Shown here in pieces: positions 8,185-27,876 of a stretch of DNA of 64,000 nt (positions are counted from its first letter, which is position 1; every line of letters begins with the position of its first letter). A model generated the notes under the pieces. That model was not told where the DNA came from. It made no database searches and was given only the letters and a program-made list of their open reading frames with translations. Both the position numbers and the translations under genes were made by a program. This stretch comes from Asanoa ferruginea (GTDB taxonomy: Bacteria > Actinomycetota > Actinomycetes > Mycobacteriales > Micromonosporaceae), in contig NZ_QUMQ01000001.1 in the NCBI RefSeq assembly GCF_003387075.1, positions 7,068,001 through 7,132,000 of the forward strand, in the 5' to 3' direction.

Positions 8185-8715
8185 TCAGCCGTGGCGTTGG
8201 CTCAGGTAGGCCAGGACGGCCTCGCGGGTGGTGCGCACACCCAGCGTGGCGCGGGCCTGCGCGATGCGGCGGTTGGCCGTGCGCAGCGACAGGAACTCGG
8301 CCGCCGCGGCCGCGGCGATGGTCTCGCCGTTGGCGAGACGGTCGAGCAGCGCCCGCTGCTCGGGGATCAGCTCGCCGGGGCTGCCGCCGTCCGGGGCGGG
8401 CTCCGCGCCGCCCGCGTCGCGGTGCACCGGACCCAACCGGGTCAGGTCGGCGAGCAGGGCCCGGCCGATGTCGCCGCCGCTGTCGGTGATCGCCACGACG
8501 CCGGCGCCACGGGCCGCGGCCAGGACGACGAGCCGGACGGTTTCCCGGTCGGGTACCCGGCCGAACAGCAGCAACCGGTTGCCGGTCAGGTCCCACGCCT
8601 GCTCGGTCAGCGCGAAGCCTTCGCGGGTGACCCAGCCGGAGCGCGACAACCGGCGCAGCACCGCGGTCGCGTCGCCGGCGCTGGGCAGCACATAGCGGGG
8701 CTGGTCGTCGCTCAC
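8185..8715 (-). CDS. Small LuxR-type helix-turn-helix protein
   Basis: The product has 176 residues. The C-terminal 60 (ELIPEQRALLDRLANGETIA, then EFLSLRTANRRIAQARATLG) form a LuxR/FixJ-type four-helix DNA-binding domain. The N-terminal 110 residues are not a recognisable receiver domain: no acidic phospho-acceptor pocket is apparent, though AITDSGGDIGRALLAD might mimic one. The GTG start has a strong GGAGGTG ribosome site. It sits 25 bases after the large LuxR gene and is probably co-transcribed with it, suggesting that the two regulators work on the same target, perhaps the divergent dynamin cassette. Confidence 0.75.
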   Translation of the reverse strand: MSDDQPRYVLPSAGDATAVLRRLSRSGWVTREGFALTEQAWDLTGNRLLLFGRVPDRETVRLVVLAAARGAGVVAITDSGGDIGRALLADLTRLGPVHRDAGGAEPAPDGGSPGELIPEQRALLDRLANGETIAAAAAAEFLSLRTANRRIAQARATLGVRTTREAVLAYLSQRHG

Positions 8716-8740: not shown

Positions 8741-11700
8741 TCATCGCAGCTGCTCCAGCGCCATCGCGGCGGCCGCGGTGCGGGTGCGGGCGCCGAGCTT
8801 GCGCATCCCCGCCCGGATGTGGGTTTCCACCGTCTCGGCCGAGATGCCGAGCTGTCCCGCGATCCGCCGGCTCGGTTCGCCGCGGGCGACCAGGCGCAGC
8901 ACGTCGCGCTCCCGCTCGGTCAGCTCCGACCCGGATCGGGGCCCGCGCGTCTCCCGCCGCACCGAGTGGCGGCGCAATGCCCGCCGCGCCCGGCCGAGCA
9001 GCACCACCAGGCCAGCCGCCTCGGCCAGACGTTCGGCGGCCAGCAGCGCGGACACCGCACGCTCCGGATCGTTCTCGTGCACGCCCGCGGCCAGCAGGCA
9101 GCGCACCTCCTCGCGGACGACCAGGTCGTGCCACGCTGCGGCGGCCCGGTCGAAGCCTCCCGTACCCGACCACGCGGCGAGGGTCTCGCGGACCGCGGGC
9201 AGCCCGGCGGACGCCACGTCCGTCGCGTCGAGTTCCGCCGGATCACGATCGCCGACCGCACCGTCGTAGGCCGCCCAGCGCGCGGTGATCCGGCGCAGCC
9301 CGTCGACCAACGGCGGTGCCCCGGCGCCGGCGTCGGGTTGCGCGGCCAGGTCGGGCTGCCCGTCGAGCCACGCCGCCTCCCGGCCCACCCAGTCGAGCAA
9401 CGCCGCGGCGGCCGGAGCGGGCGCGGCGGCGGCCAGCCGGGCGCGGGCCGGAGCGAGCAGGCCACCGTCGGCCTCGACCAGGCTGGCGGCGGCGACCGCG
9501 TACGCCCTGGCCAGCGCCGGCACCGTCCGGTCGGTGAGGTCGGCGGCCCGGCGCACCACGTCGTCGACGGGCGTACCGGCCGGATCGCCGCGCAACGCCA
9601 CGCACCACAGGGCGGCGGCCAGGAACCGGGCCTGCCAGCTGTAGGCGAGGTCGGCCGCGCACGCCACCGCCGCCCGTTCCGCGGTGGCGGCCGCCTCGGT
9701 CAACCGCCCGTCGGCCGCGAGCGTCTCCACGAGGAGCCATGCACTCCACCGGGTCGCGAGCGGATCGCCGGCCACGGCGGCGGCCTCCGCGGCGGATGCG
9801 AGCCCGTACTCCCAGCCGGGTACCCGCCCGGCCGCCCGGACCGCGGCGACCGCGGCGCGCAGCCCAGCGTGGGCCGGCGGGTCACCGAGCCGTGCCGCGG
9901 CGTCCAGCGCACCGGCCGGATCGGTGGCCAGGCGGGCAAGCAGCAGCACCCGGTCGCGGCCCGCACGGACCGATTCAGGAGCGTCATCGGGTACGGGCGC
10001 CGCCGCCGCCCGCGCCCCCGCGAGGTCACCGAGCTGGAGCAACGCCTCGGCGCGCAGCACGGCGGCGTCGACACCGAGCGGTCCGGCGGCGGCCAGCGCT
10101 CGCACCGCGGCACGGGGCCGCCCGGCTTCGAGGGCAGCCGCCGCGGCGCCAACTCGGGTCGCTTCGGTCGGCCGGGCGCCGGGCAGGTCACAGGCGAGCA
10201 GGAGCAGCTCGGCACGCTCCCCGGCGGTGCTGGCTCGTGCTGCCGCGGTGACGGCCCGCGCCGCCGCGGCCGCATGGTCGCCGGCCGCGGCGAGATGCCG
10301 GGCGGCTTCGCGGTCGGGGGTCAGCTCGGCGAGCCGCCGATGCAGTGCGGCCCGGGCATCGGCGTCGAGCATGCCGGCCGCGACCTCGGCGAGGTAGGGG
10401 GACGCGGGCGCGACCAGGTCGGCCCCAGGCGGTCCGTTGAGGGGCGCGTTGTCCTCGGGTCCGAACGCTGCCGCCGACACGCCGCCGCTGACCTGAGCGC
10501 CATCGGCCGCATCGCCTGCTTGGGTGATGACCTCGCCGCTCTGGGCAACGACTCGAGCCTGCGCCGAGATGTCTCGGCCGCCGTCGGCGGCGTTGACGGC
10601 CGGCGCCCCGCCGGGCGTCGCCGCCGCGACCACGCGGCCGCCGTCCGCGCCCTGCGGGGAACCGTCCCCACTTCGTTCGAGCTGGGCCGGCGACCAACTA
10701 CGTGCGCTGCCACCAGCGGGAGTGTCCCCGGGCTCCGACACGTCCCTGGCCGGTTCGAGCCCGCCAGCCGTGACAACCTGGCGGCCATCCGGAGCGGCTG
10801 CGTCGCCCTCCGGCCCGGCCGCGAGCTCGCCGGCCGGCGGAACCAAAGCGCCTTCCTGAGCAGCTGCGTCGCCCTTTGGCCCGGCCGCGAGCTCGCCGGC
10901 CCGCGCCACCAAAGCGCCTTCCTGGGCGGCTACGCCGCCTTCCCGTCCGACCGCGAACTCGCCGGCCGCTGGAACCAAAGCGCCTTCCTGAGCAGCTGCG
11001 CCCCCCGCCGGCCCGGCCACGAACTCGCCGGCCGGCGGAACCAAAGCGCCCTGCCGGACGGCTGCACCGCCCTCCGGCCCAGTCACGAACTCGCCGGCCG
11101 CCGGAACCGAAGCGCCATTCCGGGCACTGCCACCGGCCGCGAACCCACTGGGCGGTGGGTTCGAAGCTGCGGGACCGAGATTCCCGGCACCGCTAGCGCC
11201 CATCACGTCCAGGGCAAGCCCACCAGCCGACGGGACCGGCACGACCAGACCGGCTGCGCGCAGCTCCTCGACACCGGCGCCGAGCAGGGCCGGGCTGGCG
11301 GGGCGGCCGAGCAGCCCGAGGGCCGCCATCGCCGTGCGGGCCGGGCGGGTCAGGTCGGCCAGCGCCTCCGCGACCGCGTAAGCGACCTGATCAACCTCGG
11401 GCACATCGACGGCGACCAGAGCCGGAAACGCGTCCGTGGCGTCCGGCCCCCGAGACCCGGCGGCCGGCCGACCGGACCCGGCGTGCCGCGCCAGCGCGGT
11501 CACCGCCAGCGGAATTCCCCCGGCCCGATGGACCACATCCGCGACCGCCGCCTCGCCGAGCGCGGGCGCGACCCGGCGCGCCAGCTCGGTGGCCGCCTCG
11601 ACCGACAGCGGCGGCAGTGCCAACCACCCCGAGGAAGCCGCACGCAGGGCGGACACCGCCTCGGCCGGCAACCGGTGCGGGGTGCGCAGCGCGACCACGG

Positions 11701-12103
11701 CCCGGGTATGCGCGCCCAACGCCGCCACGGCAGCGATCGTCGCCGGATCGGCCCACTGGAGATCGTCGACCACGAGCAGCCCGGACCGGACCCGCGAGCG
11801 GACCGCCTCGGCCAGCAGCGCGACGTCGTGGGCCGGCAGGCGGACCCGTACCGCCCGGGACAGGGCCAGCGCCGGGACGTCCTGGAGCATCGCCAGGCCG
11901 CCGCCCGCGAAGACCGGGCCGCGGAACGCTGCCGCCAGGTCCCGCAGCGCGGTGCTGCGGCCGGCTCCGGGGGCGCCGGTGAGCACGACCAGGCCGGGGC
12001 TGGCCAGCAGCGCGCGGGCCCCCGCGACGGCGTCGTCGGGCGCCGTGCCGGCCGGTTCGCCGGCGGCACGGTCGGCGACACCGGTGCCCGGTGCGTGCGG
12101 CAC
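8741..12103 (-). CDS. Large LuxR-family (LAL-like) transcriptional regulator with repeat insert
   Basis: This 1120-residue protein has an N-terminal STAND/AAA NTPase module and a C-terminal LuxR helix-turn-helix domain (about 1055-1118: ELTERERDVLRLVARG, then GISAETVETHIRAGMRKLGA). The Walker A loop reads GAPGAGRST at residues 42-51, with Arg49 where Lys is expected. Walker B is intact (LLVVDDLQWADP, about 115). The middle is alanine-rich helical repeat, as in LAL regulators that sense a ligand and activate neighbouring operons. Residues 330-439 hold five 22-residue tandem repeats. The gene is divergent from the dynamin cassette, and its own start is 58 bases from a perfect 19-bp palindrome. 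Confidence 0.85.
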   Translation of the reverse strand: MPHAPGTGVADRAAGEPAGTAPDDAVAGARALLASPGLVVLTGAPGAGRSTALRDLAAAFRGPVFAGGGLAMLQDVPALALSRAVRVRLPAHDVALLAEAVRSRVRSGLLVVDDLQWADPATIAAVAALGAHTRAVVALRTPHRLPAEAVSALRAASSGWLALPPLSVEAATELARRVAPALGEAAVADVVHRAGGIPLAVTALARHAGSGRPAAGSRGPDATDAFPALVAVDVPEVDQVAYAVAEALADLTRPARTAMAALGLLGRPASPALLGAGVEELRAAGLVVPVPSAGGLALDVMGASGAGNLGPAASNPPPSGFAAGGSARNGASVPAAGEFVTGPEGGAAVRQGALVPPAGEFVAGPAGGAAAQEGALVPAAGEFAVGREGGVAAQEGALVARAGELAAGPKGDAAAQEGALVPPAGELAAGPEGDAAAPDGRQVVTAGGLEPARDVSEPGDTPAGGSARSWSPAQLERSGDGSPQGADGGRVVAAATPGGAPAVNAADGGRDISAQARVVAQSGEVITQAGDAADGAQVSGGVSAAAFGPEDNAPLNGPPGADLVAPASPYLAEVAAGMLDADARAALHRRLAELTPDREAARHLAAAGDHAAAAARAVTAAARASTAGERAELLLLACDLPGARPTEATRVGAAAAALEAGRPRAAVRALAAAGPLGVDAAVLRAEALLQLGDLAGARAAAAPVPDDAPESVRAGRDRVLLLARLATDPAGALDAAARLGDPPAHAGLRAAVAAVRAAGRVPGWEYGLASAAEAAAVAGDPLATRWSAWLLVETLAADGRLTEAAATAERAAVACAADLAYSWQARFLAAALWCVALRGDPAGTPVDDVVRRAADLTDRTVPALARAYAVAAASLVEADGGLLAPARARLAAAAPAPAAAALLDWVGREAAWLDGQPDLAAQPDAGAGAPPLVDGLRRITARWAAYDGAVGDRDPAELDATDVASAGLPAVRETLAAWSGTGGFDRAAAAWHDLVVREEVRCLLAAGVHENDPERAVSALLAAERLAEAAGLVVLLGRARRALRRHSVRRETRGPRSGSELTERERDVLRLVARGEPSRRIAGQLGISAETVETHIRAGMRKLGARTRTAAAAMALEQLR
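10787..11116 (-). repeat. Five in-frame 66-bp repeats inside the LuxR regulator
   Basis: Five consecutive 22-residue units run through residues 330-439 of the regulator, each with the pattern GA-V-P-AGE-aaGp-GdaAAQE. Typical units open GALVPPAGEF. The DNA period is exactly 66 bases, so the frame is kept. Composition is Ala/Gly/Pro/Glu, without obvious hydrophobic core positions, so the stretch is probably a flexible spacer. A further degenerate Ala/Gly-rich region follows to about residue 560. Confidence 0.85.
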
Positions 12104-12160
12104 TCATCCTCCGACCCTCGGGGCCCCCGGCGACACGTACTCCGGTGGCACGAACATGGG

Positions 12161-12179
12161 ATCCTGCCGCCGGCAGGAT
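12161..12179. promoter_or_regulatory. Perfect 19-bp palindrome between LuxR regulator and dynamin cassette
   Basis: ATCCTGCCG-C-CGGCAGGAT is a perfect inverted repeat of nine-base arms around one base. It lies in the 123-bp divergent gap, 48 bases before the first small ORF of the cassette and 58 bases before the regulator's start. A -10-like TAGTGT (12185-12190) follows in the direction of the cassette, which would place the palindrome over the -35 region. It is a natural candidate operator for the LuxR-type proteins; binding is inferred. Confidence 0.6.
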
Positions 12180-12226
12180 ATTCGTAGTGTTGGTCGAGCC
12201 GACCCAGCCAGGAGGACCACGCCACA

Positions 12227-12343
12227 ATGACCGCGCACCCCCGCCGGGCCATCGTTATTGTCGCCGACGGCCCGCGCCCTGACGAGCCCAGCGCGGGTGG
12301 CATGCCCGGTTGGGGCGGTTTGCAGGGGAGTGTCCGGGCGTGA
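12227..12343 (+). CDS. 38-residue leader ORF coupled to the first dynamin-like gene
   Basis: ATG at 12227 is preceded by GGAGGA with a 9-base spacer and the frame ends in TGA at 12341-12343. The peptide begins MTAHPRRAIVIVADGPRPDE. Its stop overlaps the GTG start of the dynamin-like GTPase as GTGA, the typical arrangement for translational coupling. It has no match that I recognise. It may be a real small protein or a leader that sets translation of the GTPase; the strong ribosome site and the overlap argue that it is translated. Confidence 0.55.
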   Translation: MTAHPRRAIVIVADGPRPDEPSAGGMPGWGGLQGSVRA

Positions 12344-13860
12344 CGGCTCCGATCGCGCTGCGGCAGGTCGTCGCCGGGCTCTGCGACGAGGTGGGGCCGC
12401 GGCTCACCTCCGACGCCGCGCGTCTTCAGGTGCGGCGGGTGCGGCAGCGGCTCGACGAGCCCCTGCGGGTCGCGATCGCCGGCCGGCTCAAGGCGGGCAA
12501 GTCGACGCTGGTCAACGCGCTCATCGGGCGCCGGGTGGCGCCGACCGAGGTCGGCGAGTGCACCCGGGTGGTCACCCAGTTCCGTTACGGGACCTCAGAC
12601 CGGATCGATGTCGTACGCCGCGACGGCAGCCGCCTCAGCCTGCCCCTCGACGAAGCGGGGATGATTCCCCAGCGGCTGGGCGTACCCGCGGCTGAGGTGG
12701 CTTTTGTCGATGTTGCCCTGACCAGCGCCAACCTGCGCGACCTGACCGTGGTCGACACGCCCGGGCTGTCGTCGACGAACGCGTCGGTGTCGGCCGGCGC
12801 GCGCCGGTTCCTGTTCCAGGACAACACGGCGCCGATCGACGACGGGCTCGACGCCGACTCCGCGGGGGCCATCTCCGGGGCCGAAGCGATCGTGTACGTG
12901 TTCACCCAGGCCGTCCGCGATGACGACGTGGCCGCGCTCGAGGCGTTCCGGTCGGTGTCGGCCCGGCTGGCCAGCAACCCGATCAACTCGGTCGGGCTGT
13001 TCAACAAGGCCGACAAGCTGGTCGAGGCGCCCGGCGACCCGTGGCCGGTCGCCGAGCGGCTGGCCGGCGACCAGGCACAGACGCTGCGCCGGGTGGTGTC
13101 CGGCGTGGTGCCGGTCGTCGGGCTGCTCGCCGAGACGACCGAGGCCGGCCGGCTCACCGCCGCCGACTGCGAGGCGCTGCGCGCGCTGGCCGGATTGTCG
13201 GTGGCCGAGCGTACGCTGCTGCTCGCATCCGTTGACCTGTTCGTCTCACGACCCGCACCCGTGTCCGGCGAGCACCGCCAACGGTTGTTGACCCTGCTCG
13301 ACCTCTACGGGATCGGCTTCTCGCTGGCGCAACTCGCCGCCCGCCCGACGCTGGGCAGCGGCGACCTGGTGCGGATGCTCTACCAGGTGTCCGGGTTCCC
13401 GCGGCTGCGGCACACGCTCGACCACGCCTTCCGTTGGCGCACCGACGCGATCAAGGCCGGCTGGGCGCTGTCGACCCTGGAGAAGGCCGCCGGGCACGCC
13501 GACAGCATTCCGGACAGGGAGGTGTTGCGCGACGCGATCGAACGGGTGCTGCAACGCCCCGAATACCACCGGCTGCGGCTGCTCGAGGCGGCCCAGCAGG
13601 TCAGCGGCGGCGCGGTCGAGCTGCCGGCGCCGATGGAGCAGGAGCTGACCCGGCTGGCCCTGTCGCACGATCCGCAATGGATCCTGAGCCTGCCCACCGC
13701 CGGCGCCGACGAGCTGCGCAAGGCCGCCCTGGACGCGGCCGCACGCTGGCGGGTGTTCGCGGTCGCCGGTGCGAGCCCGGCCCAGTCGCGGGTCGCGCTG
13801 GTCGTGCACCGCGGCTTCCACCTGCTCTCGCAGCGCCTGCGCGAGGGGGTGGCCTCATGA
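12340..13860 (+). CDS. Dynamin-like GTPase, first of pair
   Basis: The product has 506 residues with a complete dynamin-type G domain: P-loop GRLKAGKST (residues 48-56), switch I threonine region with ECTRVVTQF, VVDTPGLSS (G3, DxxG), and FNKADK (G4, N222-D225). The rest is helical stalk. Bacterial dynamin-like proteins such as the mycobacterial IniA and Streptomyces DynA tubulate, tether or fuse membranes. No membrane span is obvious here, so it probably depends on its partner. The GTG at 12340 was chosen over an earlier ATG (12310) because of the GGGGAG site and the GTGA overlap. Its stop overlaps a 19-codon ORF. Confidence 0.9.
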   Translation: MTAPIALRQVVAGLCDEVGPRLTSDAARLQVRRVRQRLDEPLRVAIAGRLKAGKSTLVNALIGRRVAPTEVGECTRVVTQFRYGTSDRIDVVRRDGSRLSLPLDEAGMIPQRLGVPAAEVAFVDVALTSANLRDLTVVDTPGLSSTNASVSAGARRFLFQDNTAPIDDGLDADSAGAISGAEAIVYVFTQAVRDDDVAALEAFRSVSARLASNPINSVGLFNKADKLVEAPGDPWPVAERLAGDQAQTLRRVVSGVVPVVGLLAETTEAGRLTAADCEALRALAGLSVAERTLLLASVDLFVSRPAPVSGEHRQRLLTLLDLYGIGFSLAQLAARPTLGSGDLVRMLYQVSGFPRLRHTLDHAFRWRTDAIKAGWALSTLEKAAGHADSIPDREVLRDAIERVLQRPEYHRLRLLEAAQQVSGGAVELPAPMEQELTRLALSHDPQWILSLPTAGADELRKAALDAAARWRVFAVAGASPAQSRVALVVHRGFHLLSQRLREGVAS

Positions 13861-13916
13861 GCGGACGATCCAGCCTGAGGTCCCGCCGGGCAGCGCGAAG
13901 TGAGGACCGAGCATGA
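13857..13916 (+). CDS. 19-residue arginine-rich linker ORF
   Basis: ATG at 13857 overlaps the stop of the first dynamin gene (ATGA) and its TGA at 13914-13916 overlaps the ATG of the second dynamin gene (ATGA). The peptide, MSGRSSLRSRRAARSEDRA, has six arginines in 19 residues. The ORF precisely fills the gap between the two GTPases, so ribosomes could pass down the whole mRNA by termination-reinitiation. I cannot say whether the peptide itself has a function. Confidence 0.4.
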   Translation: MSGRSSLRSRRAARSEDRA

Positions 13917-15760
13917 CTGACCTGTCCGCGCTTCTCGGCGAAGCGGTCGACGGCTCGCTGGCGTTTCTGCGGCGGGCCGACGCCGACGCGGCCGCCGACA
14001 TCGAGGCGATCCGGCGCCGCGCCGTCACCCGGCCGTCGATCGTCGTGGTCGGTGAGACCAAGCGGGGCAAGAGCTCGCTGGTCAACGCGCTGATCGGGGT
14101 GCCCGACCTGTCGCCGGTCGACGCGGCCGTCGCGACGGCGACCTACCTCGAGTTCGTGCCCGGCAACCCGCACGGCGCGCGGGCGTGGCTGCCCGACCAG
14201 GCGCAGCCCGTACCCCTGGAATTGGCGCAGTTGCGTGATTGGGCGACCACCCTCGGCCGCCTGCCCGACGGCGCCCGGCCACCGCGCCGGGTCGAGGTGA
14301 CCCACTCGGCGCCGCTGCTGCAATATCTGAGCCTGGTCGACACGCCGGGCACCGGCGGCCTCGACCCACTGCACGCCGAGATTGCCCTCGACGCGGCGAC
14401 GCAGGCCGGCGCGCTGCTGTTCGTCGTCGACGCGTCCGGGCCGTTCACCCGCCCCGAGCTGGAGTTCCTCATCGAGGCCAGCAAGCGGGTCAACGTGGTG
14501 GTGTTCGCGCTGACCAAGACCGACGCCTACCCGGGCTGGCGGACGATCCTCGCCGACGACCGCGCCCAGCTGCAGACGCACGCGCCGCGGTTCGCGCAGG
14601 CGCCGTGGTTCCCGGTGTCGGCGCGGCTCGCGCAGTTGTCGATGACGCTGCCCGGCGAGGCCGGCGCCGAGCTGGTCCGCGAGTCACGGATCGCCGGGCT
14701 CCAGCACGCGCTGATCGAGCTGGCCGGCAAGGGCCACCTGCTGCGGCAGGCCAACGTGTTGCGGGCGGTGCGCAGCGAGCTGGTGCGGCTCGACCTGCGG
14801 GCCGGCGAGCGCCTGACCGCCAGCGACCCCGACCCGGCCGACGTGGCGAAGGCCCGCGCCGACCGGACGGCGCTGGCGGCGCGCAAGCGGACCGAGTCGC
14901 GGCAGTGGTCGCTCACGCTCAACACAGAGACGCAGCGGGCCCGGGTGGAGGCGACCGGAAAGCTGCGGACGTACGTGGCCCAGCTCCAGGACGAGCAGCT
15001 CACCCGGATCGACAAGGCGAAGAGCGAAGACCTCAAGGCGCTGCCGAGCGAGCTCGACACGGCTTTGCAGGCGCTGTCGATCCGGCTGTCGCAGGACCTC
15101 GAGTCCCGGTTCCGCAACGTCGCCGAGAAAGTCCTCGCCCAGGTATTCGGCGCGGACGAGCTCCAGTTCGTGCTGGCCCGGCTCAACGCGACGCTGCGGC
15201 ACGCGCTGACCAGCCGGCCACCCCGGGACACCGGCACCGACAACATGATGATCGCGATGTCGGCCGGCGGCATGGCGTTCATGGCCGGCCGCGGCGCGAT
15301 GGCCGGCGCGTCGGCACTCGGCGCGGGCGCGCTGCTCGGCGGTGGCCTGCTCGTCCCGGTCGCCGGGCTGGGGCTGGGGCTGGCCGCGGGGGCGTTCATC
15401 CTCTACCGGCGGCGGGCGCAGAGCGACCGGGCCCAGGCCCGGCTGTGGCTGCGCGACGTGCTCGGCGAGGCCCGCGCCGCCCTGTCCGACGAGATCATGC
15501 ACCGGTTCACGGATTTGCAGTACGCGCTGACGCTGGCCCTCGACGACGCCATCGAGAAGCGGCTCCAGCAGCTCGACGCGCACATCGCCGAGATCGACAA
15601 GGCGCTCGCCGACGACAAGGCCGAGCGCGCCCGCCGCCGGGCCGGGATCGCCGCCGAGCGCGAGGCGATCCGCTCCCGCATCAAACAGGTCGACACCGTG
15701 CTCGTCCGGGCACGGACCCTGGCACCCGCCGCCACCACCGACGACCAGGAGCTGTCATGA
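13913..15760 (+). CDS. Dynamin-like GTPase, membrane-inserted partner
   Basis: This 615-residue protein has a G domain with P-loop GETKRGKSS (residues 47-55), SLVDTPGTGG (G3) and ALTKTDAY (G4, T201-D204). After a long helical stalk, residues about 445-497 form a glycine/alanine-rich double hydrophobic segment (MSAGGMAFMAG, then LLVPVAGLGLGLAAGAFILY), a membrane paddle. A charged coiled coil ends the protein. This is the layout of membrane-bound bacterial dynamins (IniC or Streptomyces DynB types). Paired neighbouring dynamins usually form hetero-oligomers on the inner membrane. It is coupled to its neighbours by ATGA overlaps at both ends; GAGGAC is the ribosome site. Confidence 0.9.
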   Translation: MTDLSALLGEAVDGSLAFLRRADADAAADIEAIRRRAVTRPSIVVVGETKRGKSSLVNALIGVPDLSPVDAAVATATYLEFVPGNPHGARAWLPDQAQPVPLELAQLRDWATTLGRLPDGARPPRRVEVTHSAPLLQYLSLVDTPGTGGLDPLHAEIALDAATQAGALLFVVDASGPFTRPELEFLIEASKRVNVVVFALTKTDAYPGWRTILADDRAQLQTHAPRFAQAPWFPVSARLAQLSMTLPGEAGAELVRESRIAGLQHALIELAGKGHLLRQANVLRAVRSELVRLDLRAGERLTASDPDPADVAKARADRTALAARKRTESRQWSLTLNTETQRARVEATGKLRTYVAQLQDEQLTRIDKAKSEDLKALPSELDTALQALSIRLSQDLESRFRNVAEKVLAQVFGADELQFVLARLNATLRHALTSRPPRDTGTDNMMIAMSAGGMAFMAGRGAMAGASALGAGALLGGGLLVPVAGLGLGLAAGAFILYRRRAQSDRAQARLWLRDVLGEARAALSDEIMHRFTDLQYALTLALDDAIEKRLQQLDAHIAEIDKALADDKAERARRRAGIAAEREAIRSRIKQVDTVLVRARTLAPAATTDDQELS

Positions 15761-16437
15761 GCGACGACTGGAACTGGGACGACGGGCATTCGGACCATTC
15801 GGGGTACGACGGATCCGACGACCATTCCGGGTACGACGGGTCGGGCGATCACCACGACGCCGGGTTCCACCACGACGACGCGGACCCGTTCGGCAGCGAC
15901 GTGCCCGACGGGCTCGGCGGCGACCTGGCTGGTCACCACGACCTCACCGGGCACGACGACCTGCCGGGGCACGACGACCAGGTGGATTACGGCGACGACG
16001 GCGGCTTCGACGCCGGCGATCCGTTCGCCCCGCACGCGCTGGTCAGCGAGCACCACGACTGGTCCGACGGTCTTGACGACGGCACCGGCATCGGCGACGA
16101 CGGGTTGGCCGGCGTGCACGACGCCGGGCTGTTCACCGTCGACCCGGATGTCGCCGCCTACACCGACGGGGTCTGGCCCTCGCCGGAGTTCCCGGCCGCC
16201 CTGGATCTTCACGACATCTCGCCGATCGATGGCCCGCCGTGGACCGACGCGTCGGCGTTGGGGATCGGGCTTCCGGACGCCGATCCGCTCCCGACGGACG
16301 TGCCCGATGTGTCGGAGCTGGCGGCCTACGCCGGTCTTGATCCGACATCGGCCAGCGCCGGCTGGGACGCGCTGCTGGGGTCCGACGACCCCGCGACGTC
16401 GGCTCTTGCCCGCTTCTGGGGACCGCCGACGTCGTAG
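15757..16437 (+). CDS. Extremely acidic Asp/His/Gly-rich protein of dynamin cassette
   Basis: The 226-residue product starts by ATGA overlap with the second dynamin gene. It contains no lysine and only one arginine (near the C-terminus, ALARFWGPP), while the first half is built of Asp, His, Gly and Ser, including the repeated DHSGYDGS. No signal peptide, membrane segment or known domain is visible. The second half (about 130-226) is less biased and may fold, with SPEFPAALDLHDISPID. The Asp/His composition could bind divalent metal ions or act as a charged scaffold for the GTPases. Function is unknown; the tight coupling says that it is part of the same machine. Confidence 0.75.
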   Translation: MSDDWNWDDGHSDHSGYDGSDDHSGYDGSGDHHDAGFHHDDADPFGSDVPDGLGGDLAGHHDLTGHDDLPGHDDQVDYGDDGGFDAGDPFAPHALVSEHHDWSDGLDDGTGIGDDGLAGVHDAGLFTVDPDVAAYTDGVWPSPEFPAALDLHDISPIDGPPWTDASALGIGLPDADPLPTDVPDVSELAAYAGLDPTSASAGWDALLGSDDPATSALARFWGPPTS

Positions 16438-26285: not shown

Positions 26286-26328
26286 GCGACGGAGTATGCC
26301 GGCCGCAAGCGACGATAGGGTGGCGGCC

Positions 26329-27876
26329 ATGCGGGCGGTGGGCATCGATTTCGGCACCTCGCACACGGTGGCGGTGGTCGCCGTCGATGGTGCGCCGGCC
26401 CGGCCGCTGTTGTTCGACGGCTCGCCGCTGCTGCCATCGGCCGTCTACCTCGATCCGGGCGGGCGGCTGGTCGCAGGTCAGGACGCGGTGCGGGCGGCGC
26501 GGCTCGACCCGGCCCGGTTCGAACCCAACCCCAAACGCCGGGTCGACGAGGGTACGGTCCTACTCGGTTCTTCCTCCGTGGCGGTGTCCTCGCTGATCGG
26601 GGCCGTGCTGGCGCGGGTCGGCGAGGAAGCGCGGCGGTGGGCCGGTGAGGCCTACTCGGTGGTGTTGACGCATCCGGCGGGGTGGTCGTCGGTGCGCTGC
26701 GAGGTGTTGGTCGCGGCAGCGGAGTCGGCCGGGTTGCCCGGAACGCCGACGCTGCTGGCGGAGCCGGTCGCGGCGGCACGCTATTTCACGGCGGTGCTGC
26801 GCGGGACGATGCCGCCGGGCTCCGCGCTGGCGGTCTACGACCTCGGCGGCGGCACGTTCGACGCGGCGGTGGTGCGGCGCTCCCCCGCCGGGTTCTCGGT
26901 CCTCTCCGCGCACGGACTGGCCGACGTCGGCGGGCTCGACCTCGACCAGGCGCTGGTCGAGCATCTCGGCGCGGCCTACTCGCCGTCGCGGACCGCGGTG
27001 TGGAATGCGCTGCTGACACCGACCGACACAGCACACCGGCGGCAGCGGGCGCTGCTCTACGACGATGTGCGCGGCACCAAGGAGGCGCTGTCGCGGACCT
27101 CGTCGGCGGACGTGCACGTGCCCGGGCTGGAAGTCGCCGCACACGTGACCCGCGACGAACTCGAGGCGCTGGCGCGGCCGATGCTGGCGCGGACGGTCGA
27201 GTGCCTGGAACGGACGATCGCGGACGCGCGGTTGGCTGAAGAGGATCTCGTCGGGGTGTTCCTCGTGGGCGGGTCGAGCCGGATGCCGCTGGTCGCTCGG
27301 ATGATCCATCAGGAGTTGGGAATCGCTCCGACGGCGCTGGAGCAGCCCGAGACGGTGGTGGCGCAGGGTGCGGTCAGCGTCGAGCCGGCGCCGCCCGGTC
27401 ATCGGGTGCCGGCTCAGCGGCGGCCGGTCACTCCGCAGACGATGCTGATGCCGCCGCCGGTTGGCCCCGGGTATCCGGCGCCGGCCGGCCCAACCGGTGG
27501 GCCGGGTGCTGCGAGTGGGCCCCCGCTTTCCGCGCCCGCCAGCCCCTTCGGTGGGCCGGCGTATCCCGCGCCCACCAGCCCGATGGGTGGTCCGACATAT
27601 CCGGCGCCGGCGAGCCCGGCGGGTGGGCCCGGATATCCCCCGCCCGCCGGCCCAACGAGTGAGCCGGGGTATTCGGCGCCCGCCGGTCCAATGAGTGAGG
27701 CGGGGTATCCGGCGCCCGCCAGCCCGGCGGCCGGTTACGCCGTGCCCGTGCAGCGCGACCGGGCAGCGCGAACGATGTCGACGGCCGGCCGCGCCGGGTT
27801 GGCCTGGGTGGTCATCCTCAGCGTGCTCGTCTTCGTGGCCGCGGTTGTGCTCGTGGTTCTGCTCGCCAACGGCTGA
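26329..27876 (+). CDS. Membrane-anchored Hsp70-family protein with proline-rich repeats
   Basis: This 515-residue protein has an actin-like ATPase domain over residues 1-365: VGIDFGTSHTVAVVAVDG (phosphate 1), YDLGGGTFDAAVVRR (phosphate 2), and VFLVGGSSRMPLVARMI (adenosine motif). The usual substrate-binding domain is missing. Residues 379-468 are a proline-rich 12-residue repeat instead, and a single membrane span (WVVILSVLVFVAAVVLVVLL) ends the protein. It probably works as a membrane-tethered ATPase switch or sensor rather than a chaperone. Similar proteins accompany dynamin and IniB-like genes in other actinobacteria, but the dynamin cassette here is 10 kb away. Confidence 0.82.
   Translation: MRAVGIDFGTSHTVAVVAVDGAPARPLLFDGSPLLPSAVYLDPGGRLVAGQDAVRAARLDPARFEPNPKRRVDEGTVLLGSSSVAVSSLIGAVLARVGEEARRWAGEAYSVVLTHPAGWSSVRCEVLVAAAESAGLPGTPTLLAEPVAAARYFTAVLRGTMPPGSALAVYDLGGGTFDAAVVRRSPAGFSVLSAHGLADVGGLDLDQALVEHLGAAYSPSRTAVWNALLTPTDTAHRRQRALLYDDVRGTKEALSRTSSADVHVPGLEVAAHVTRDELEALARPMLARTVECLERTIADARLAEEDLVGVFLVGGSSRMPLVARMIHQELGIAPTALEQPETVVAQGAVSVEPAPPGHRVPAQRRPVTPQTMLMPPPVGPGYPAPAGPTGGPGAASGPPLSAPASPFGGPAYPAPTSPMGGPTYPAPASPAGGPGYPPPAGPTSEPGYSAPAGPMSEAGYPAPASPAAGYAVPVQRDRAARTMSTAGRAGLAWVVILSVLVFVAAVVLVVLLANG
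27463..27732 (+). repeat. In-frame 36-bp proline-rich repeats in the Hsp70-like gene
   Basis: About seven copies of a 12-residue unit, GPxYPAPASPxG, lie between the ATPase domain and the membrane span. Unit spacing is 36 bases except for one 18-residue irregular unit. The rod-like Pro/Gly linker probably spans the distance between the membrane and the ATPase domain. Confidence 0.8.

Follow-up and report, generated by a model that had tools for sequence, protein, structure and literature searches.

The 64,000-nucleotide stretch of Asanoa ferruginea DNA analysed here (the window; positions 7,068,001 to 7,132,000 of contig NZ_QUMQ01000001.1) contains a cassette composed of a leader open reading frame (ORF), two dynamin-like genes (G1 and G2) and a gene for a very acidic protein. 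By sequence comparison, the dynamin pair and the acidic gene are a conserved sister of the Ini system, and the pair gives this soil actinobacterium a second set of genes for membrane-reshaping dynamins, akin to iniBAC, which drugs induce in mycobacteria. We see about an even chance that the cassette is an Ini-type stress-inducible dynamin operon, sister of iniBAC, whose acidic partner would restrain or time the membrane binding of G2. What the sequences themselves show is the homologies, the gene order, a site found exactly once in the genome, an acidic protein and an arginine cluster in G2 that are both conserved, and codon-wise evolution of the leader.

The original prediction had described five successive ORFs as one system. 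All five and their overlaps are present (GTGA at 12340; ATGA at 13857, 13913 and 15757). Across homologous loci G1, G2 and the acidic gene held up, and the leader did so in part, whereas a 19-amino-acid (aa) ORF between G1 and G2 did not; by the refuting condition set with the prediction, this leaves a four-part system here.

The cassette lies in a 9.07-Mb single-contig genome, and its closest named relatives by G1 are in Asanoa species (92–93% identity). Two sets of loci were compared: a first set of 83 (the window, 62 named loci with L128 omitted, and 20 others) and a second set of 40, hand-picked out of a family-wide G1 search. The total of 123 loci was reduced to 117 distinct loci once identical G1 ends were removed. 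Because loci were chosen for having G1, counts describe loci, not genomes. With G1 as query at E 1e-150, 155 of 354 genomes of the family gave a match, spread over 27 of 44 genera; this cut is strict, as genome G018 was scored as a miss although its G1 is 54% identical. A search of 61 genomes with G2, the window's own included, gave some match in 46 at E 0.001.

The dynamin pair and its acidic partner

Both dynamins are encoded on the forward strand and both passed the Pfam Dynamin_N cut-off. The predicted pair of dynamin GTPases, likened to IniA and IniC, is supported and refined to an IniC-like protein followed by an IniA-like one. G1 (12340–13860; 506 aa) scored 55.2 bits against Dynamin_N and G2 (13913–15760; 615 aa) scored 53.5 bits. 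Residues 12–592 of G2 align with residues 8–577 of Mycobacterium smegmatis IniA (6j72), near full length, at 86.8 bits. Within the GTPase part, matches to structures in the PDB were BDLP (2j68) for both proteins and, for G1, 5owv, which we take to be CjDLP.

The same genome contains a second, paralogous Ini-type cluster (L169, C1:3031000-3047000). Against this cluster G1 scored 170 bits with the IniC type (36% identity) and 44.7 bits with the IniA type, and G2 scored 104 bits with the IniA type and 35.4 bits with the IniC type. G1 is thus nearer the IniC type and G2 nearer the IniA type, and the window pair is a sister of the Ini pair with the gene order reversed.

One of the dynamins had been expected to be membrane-inserted, and a simple hydropathy scan agrees: a transmembrane (TM)-like segment was found only in G2, at residues 479–497, and none in G1. 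The stretch is glycine-rich and hydrophobic, and shortly after its end at residue 497 comes a basic cluster, R499-R500-R501 (codons 15407–15415, forward strand), with Lys or Arg in 0.95, 1.00 and 1.00 of 120 orthologues from the 123 loci. G2 thus shares with IniA a basic loop, of predicted membrane-binding function, beside a hydrophobic segment.

The acidic protein (15757–16437, forward strand; 226 aa) starts in an ATGA overlap with G2. As first noted, it has no lysine; it contains a single arginine and has a net charge of −51. It carries two motifs, one of about P-x-P-[VI]-D-G-x-P-W-x-D and one at the C-terminus, DPATSALARFW. The proposal that the acidic gene belongs to the system is supported by its relatives: of the 117 distinct loci, 112 have an acidic ORF after G2, the C-terminal motif D-[PV]-[AS]-x(2-4)-L-[ASG]-x(1-2)-[FWYHL]-[WY] was found in 107, and 100 have no lysine. 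As the finder asked for more than 15% Asp+Glu and less than 7% Lys+Arg, low charge content is partly a condition of these counts; the near-absence of lysine is not. The five distinct loci without an acidic ORF were L096 (with 171 bases left past G2), L121, L060, L062 and L063. The C-terminal motif was missing from L088, where the contig end cuts it, and from L057, L061, L064 and L065.

Across 408 called genes of at least 150 aa, Lys made up 1.5% and Arg 8.4% of residues (together 9.95%). Absence of lysine alone is a weak sign against this background; the joint loss of Lys and Arg is the striking part. Only 29 of the 408 genes had less than 2% basic residues, and 24 of these belonged to the acidic family by position. 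Lysine deserts have been reported to be commonest in pupylating Actinobacteria (PMC10665810), but avoidance of pupylation was rejected as an explanation because arginine is lost as well, and charge is the simpler cause. In 34 aligned acidic proteins 11 residues were invariant (P146, P156, D158, G159, P161, W162, D164, D211, A213, L217 and W221) and R219 was nearly so, with the remainder drifting in length and sequence. The protein looks, by inference from this pattern, like a disordered polyanion bearing two docking motifs.

That a conserved polyanion is encoded beside a protein whose basic loop is conserved too points to contact between the two, and a putative contact of the acidic protein with the basic loop of G2 is the step that we find likeliest. 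In IniA, R488 and K489, in a loop beside the predicted TM segment, bind anionic lipids, above all cardiolipin (PMC6715688). The arginine cluster of G2 occupies the corresponding place. It is possible, if on the unlikely side, that the acidic protein does not regulate G2 and is a client, cell-wall spacer or ion binder merely sharing the operon, as IniB may. Consistent with this, the IniB-like protein of the second cluster is also polyanionic (2 Lys, 3 Arg and 77 acidic residues of 351), and in the distant relatives L061, L064 and L065 acidic DGDG-type repeat proteins replace the motif-bearing partner downstream of G2. The gathering of invariant residues in two short stretches of an otherwise variable body, however, fits docking better than a structural spacer.

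Regulator, control site and leader

Divergent from the cassette lies a STAND/LuxR regulator gene (8741–12103, reverse strand; 1120 aa), called IniR-like by architecture and position alone. Its GerE domain was above the Pfam cut-off (61.7 bits) and its ATPase domain, AAA_16, below it (22.4 bits). A regulator of this type adjoins iniBAC too, and a divergent homologue was found upstream in 75 of the 83 loci. IniR, of similar architecture, is described as a direct and exclusive activator of iniBAC, which is activated by trehalose (PMC5760070). A neighbouring gene (8185–8715, reverse strand) encodes a 176-aa protein with a possible C-terminal helix-turn-helix, matched in Pfam only at E 0.08, below cut-off. 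Of 83 loci, 66 have a homologue of it upstream, also on the minus strand, and 12 of the other 17 have less than 2.5 kb of upstream sequence.

Two conserved sequences lie between regulator and leader. A box, TGGCACGAACATGGGATC (12146–12163, forward strand), is proposed as an activator site; 110 of 116 distinct loci carry its part TGGCAC[GA]A, no more than 760 nucleotides (nt) upstream. The sequence TGGCACGAANNNGGGAT has one exact occurrence in the genome, at the cassette, and two further sites at one mismatch; TGGCACGA was not present in the 16-kb stretch holding the paralogous Ini-type locus. Overlapping the box is a palindrome, ATCCTGCCG-C-CGGCAGGAT (12161–12179), identical in four Asanoa loci (L034, L036, L037 and L038) and one base shorter in several other genera. 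That the exact site is single and has an IniR-like gene diverging beside it points to control dedicated to the cassette. A simple scan detected neither a sigma-70-like promoter nor a terminator. The palindrome and a divergent regulator, both pointed out earlier, are present. The regulator has an insert at 10784–11121 (reverse strand) of about five copies of an in-frame 66-nt tandem repeat, which enlarges it to 1120 aa. Elsewhere it has 898–1050 aa (four other Asanoa loci) or about 750–925 aa (many other loci).

The leader ORF (12227–12343, forward strand; 38 aa) has AGGAGG upstream, and its stop overlaps the G1 start (GTGA). Within it is a bipartite element, (T/C)ATTGTCGCCGAC-N11-TGACGAG (12256–12286, forward strand). 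In general form the element before G1 is a core, CATTGTCGCCGAC, then 12 nt, then TGACGAG. The 12-nt spacing holds outside Asanoa and L082; in Asanoa it is 11 nt, which shifts the frame, removes the old stop and gives a leader of at least 38 aa. One other exact copy of ATTGTCGCCGAC was found in the genome (C1:9058476-9058487). Scored at 15 or more of 20 points, with one point lost for other spacing, the element was present in 54 of 116 distinct loci; among mononucleotide shuffles 1 of 360 reached 15. As a part of the system the predicted leader is real and kept in one group of relatives, but it is not in all of them and its open frame differs by lineage.

Two frames were seen. The frame-1 peptide, seen in 21 loci (19 distinct), is about I-[VL]-A-[DE], and the frame-2 peptide, one base on, is about T-[LF]-S-[PL]-T in 22 loci, with several variants. 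Core and spacer together span 25 nt, and there the departures from consensus were counted by codon position, each group in its own frame: positions 1, 2 and 3 gave 12, 17 and 35 in the frame-1 group and 17, 17 and 36 in the frame-2 group. The loci behind these counts have ancestry in common, so that the departures do not represent independent events. The excess at third positions in each open frame indicates that each leader ORF evolves as translated sequence. By this comparison the leader is a real, clade-specific element, evolving as if translated. It is also a natural case of a reading frame that varies between lineages with the core sequence kept.

We judge it unlikely that the element acts other than through translation, either as RNA that forms a hairpin close to the start of G1 or as a site bound on the DNA or RNA. 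The isoleucine codon is ATT in 19 of 19 distinct frame-1 leaders, against 66 of 3067 Ile codons in G1 and G2; the uniform ATT hints at constraint on the nucleotides too, although picking leaders that resemble the element in itself favours ATT. The constant 12-nt spacing of the halves outside Asanoa and L082 points the same way. Translation is favoured by the gathering of differences at the third position of codons in whichever frame is open. The candidate hairpin (UUGUCGCCG/CGGC-U-GACGA) was rejected, as single-sequence folds disagree between loci, and is retained only as part of this rival explanation; the leader had no match in Rfam at E 0.1.

Three loci had the element but no fitting leader ORF: L126, L227 and L220, the last cut at the end of the fetched stretch. 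L126 has a candidate leader with its stop at −47, and in L206 no candidate with a Shine-Dalgarno sequence was found. In Asanoa iriomotensis (L101, the same region as L035) the leader has 106 codons, with about 200 nt extra between the element and G1.

Gene junctions, the GrpE-like gene and the linked Hsp70

Tight coupling had been taken to imply fixed stoichiometry, a step that the overlaps do not support. In 34 related loci with genes called by our own script, 101 pairs of same-strand neighbours outside the cassette lay under 60 nt from each other, and 40 of these pairs had a 4-nt stop/start overlap. Coupling of this kind is thus the ordinary state here and is a poor guide to stoichiometry.

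The 19-aa ORF (13857–13916, forward strand) has ATGA overlaps at both ends and is best seen, from the comparison of Asanoa loci, as a by-product of a variable spacer rather than a conserved gene. The G1–G2 gaps in six Asanoa loci were −4, −4, −4, 52, 63 and 70 nt; that is, G1 and G2 overlap directly in three of six species. The three spacer peptides, of 19, 24 and 25 aa, have no clear likeness, and the ATGA-to-ATGA register was retained in two of the three spacer loci (the window and L037). The spacer was rejected as a dispersed repeat (9 matches versus 10 for the reversed control).

A GrpE-like gene was found between G1 and G2 (twelve queries, E 1e-4) in 57 of the 116 distinct loci whose upstream sequence was long enough. 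All four GrpE-like proteins tested passed the Pfam GrpE cut-off (PF01025), in their C-terminal part only. Those of L044, L046 and L048 differ from GrpE, by eye, in having a hydrophobic N-terminal part. The gene is absent from the cassette in the window's genus and from all 20 loci taken from a large genus (g29). The 19-aa ORF, which has the same location, was considered and rejected as a GrpE-like relic: G1 runs straight into G2 in three Asanoa loci, and GrpE-less loci outside Asanoa mostly have short or no gaps, so that a later spacer fits equally well. In the window's genome the one match to a GrpE-like query (25.5 bits), about 1 kb from an Hsp70 match, is presumably the ordinary grpE.

Leader element and GrpE-like gene were nearly exclusive. 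The element was present in 53 of 59 distinct loci without the GrpE-like gene and in 1 of 57 with it (L082, at threshold), leaving 6 loci with neither and 56 with the GrpE-like gene alone. On a tree of 84 G1 proteins the two traits need only 4 and 3 changes, so that the exclusion reflects shared history rather than repeated evidence. Gain of the leader in exchange for the GrpE-like gene was not retained as a proposal, as the tree yields at most one informative independent pair.

A gene for an Hsp70-like protein with a C-terminal TM-like segment (at 494) is located about ten kb beyond the cassette, linked but outside the operon (26329–27876, forward strand; start at 26320 or 26329 uncertain). 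It scored 106.4 bits against HSP70 and was the genome's best match, of eight, to the operon-linked Hsp70 of a distant relative (53% identity). In five distant loci (L060, L062, L063, L064 and L065) an Hsp70 match was found 1.6–2.5 kb upstream of G1 on the same strand. Another 25 of the 83 loci had one 5.5–8.3 kb downstream on the other strand, and 53 had none in reach, in a count for which the window's slice ended before its own Hsp70. The Hsp70 is read, from these positions, as loosely linked.

These companions allow a different account, which we consider quite unlikely: a chaperone- and charge-gated machine in which an anchored Hsp70 and the GrpE-like partner originally loaded or unloaded the dynamins, the polyanion acting as a membrane mimic on the IniA-like basic loop. 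Loss of GrpE in one clade would then have led to control by a translated leader, with its core kept and its frame switched. Among the titles listed from the open-licence literature, none concerned a GrpE or Hsp70 gene within a dynamin operon, and a search of the same literature for dynamin with Micromonosporaceae gave no paper.

Proposed mechanism and relation to known systems

As an Ini-type stress-inducible operon, the cassette would work as follows. The divergent STAND/LuxR activator, under a stress signal, would bind the putative dedicated site at 12146–12179 and turn the operon on. Ribosomes would enter at the strong Shine-Dalgarno sequence of the leader and be passed on to G1, G2 and the acidic gene. 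G1, which would be soluble, and G2 may act jointly, as a heteromer, in fission or repair of the cell membrane. Docking of the polyanionic protein would be via its C-terminal motif, and its acidic body could compete with anionic lipids for the arginine cluster of G2, thereby restraining or timing membrane binding. To the bacterial dynamin pairs already described, iniBAC included, the cassette adds a conserved partner with two short near-invariant motifs and one candidate regulatory site. Its relatives add a GrpE-like companion and an Hsp70 that is linked, and the hosts are soil actinomycetes open to gene deletion.

Several observations weigh against this interpretation. G2 is far from IniA and is not the best IniA match of its own genome (86.8 bits against 6j72, versus 391 bits for the paralogous protein at C1:3038336-3040123, L169:7337-9124), so that IniA biochemistry may not carry over. 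The acidic protein had no match in Pfam or NCBIfam at E 0.5, and thus no known domain, although this comparison has little power as a test for IniB, the IniB-like control being without a match at E 0.01. With two mismatches allowed, the box gave 40 matches versus 27 for the reversed control, so that the exact site alone is distinctive. As 62 of 116 loci lack the leader element, it is not needed for the system as such. The PADLOC profiles LeoA and LeoBC match G2 as well.

It is also quite doubtful that the cassette is the counterpart of Streptomyces DynA/DynB, stabilising FtsZ rings at sporulation septa with the acidic protein as a divisome adaptor. The hosts are related filamentous bacteria; we know of no acidic partner or STAND regulator for DynA/DynB. 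The likeness is one of description: two partner dynamins in filamentous actinobacteria, DynA and a DynB with two TM segments (PMC8748795). G2, however, has one TM-like segment and G1 none in the simple scan, and the divergent STAND/LuxR gene with its once-exact site better fits induction. The 199 of 354 family genomes without a G1 match would be odd for a core division part, at a cut strict enough to miss G018. Paired bacterial dynamins such as CjDLP1/2 are a further likeness, heterotypic pairs being described as tethering membranes (PMC6104087); the similarity of these and of BDLP to G1 and G2 is weak and partial.

A LeoABC-like defence system shielding the membrane under phage attack is very improbable, as the PADLOC matches (LeoA 79.7 and LeoBC 77.7 bits for G2; a weak 29.2 and 18.4 bits for G1) may be generic dynamin similarity and the keeping of one divergent regulator by 75 of 83 loci from different genera is unlike mobile defence genes.

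The Ini-type interpretation finds its closest likeness in mycobacterial iniBAC with IniR: an IniA and IniC type dynamin pair and a neighbouring STAND/LuxR-type regulator (PMC5760070). The cassette differs in its reversed order (IniC-like before IniA-like), its downstream acidic gene and its leader ORF, and in that a closer IniA/IniC pair with an IniB-like gene is found elsewhere in its genome. This second cluster encodes the IniA type and then the IniC type, with an Hsp70, two STAND/LuxR-type genes and the IniB-like protein nearby; we presume the last to be IniB from its N-terminal sequence. Another acidic protein, of 182 aa, is also encoded in this cluster.

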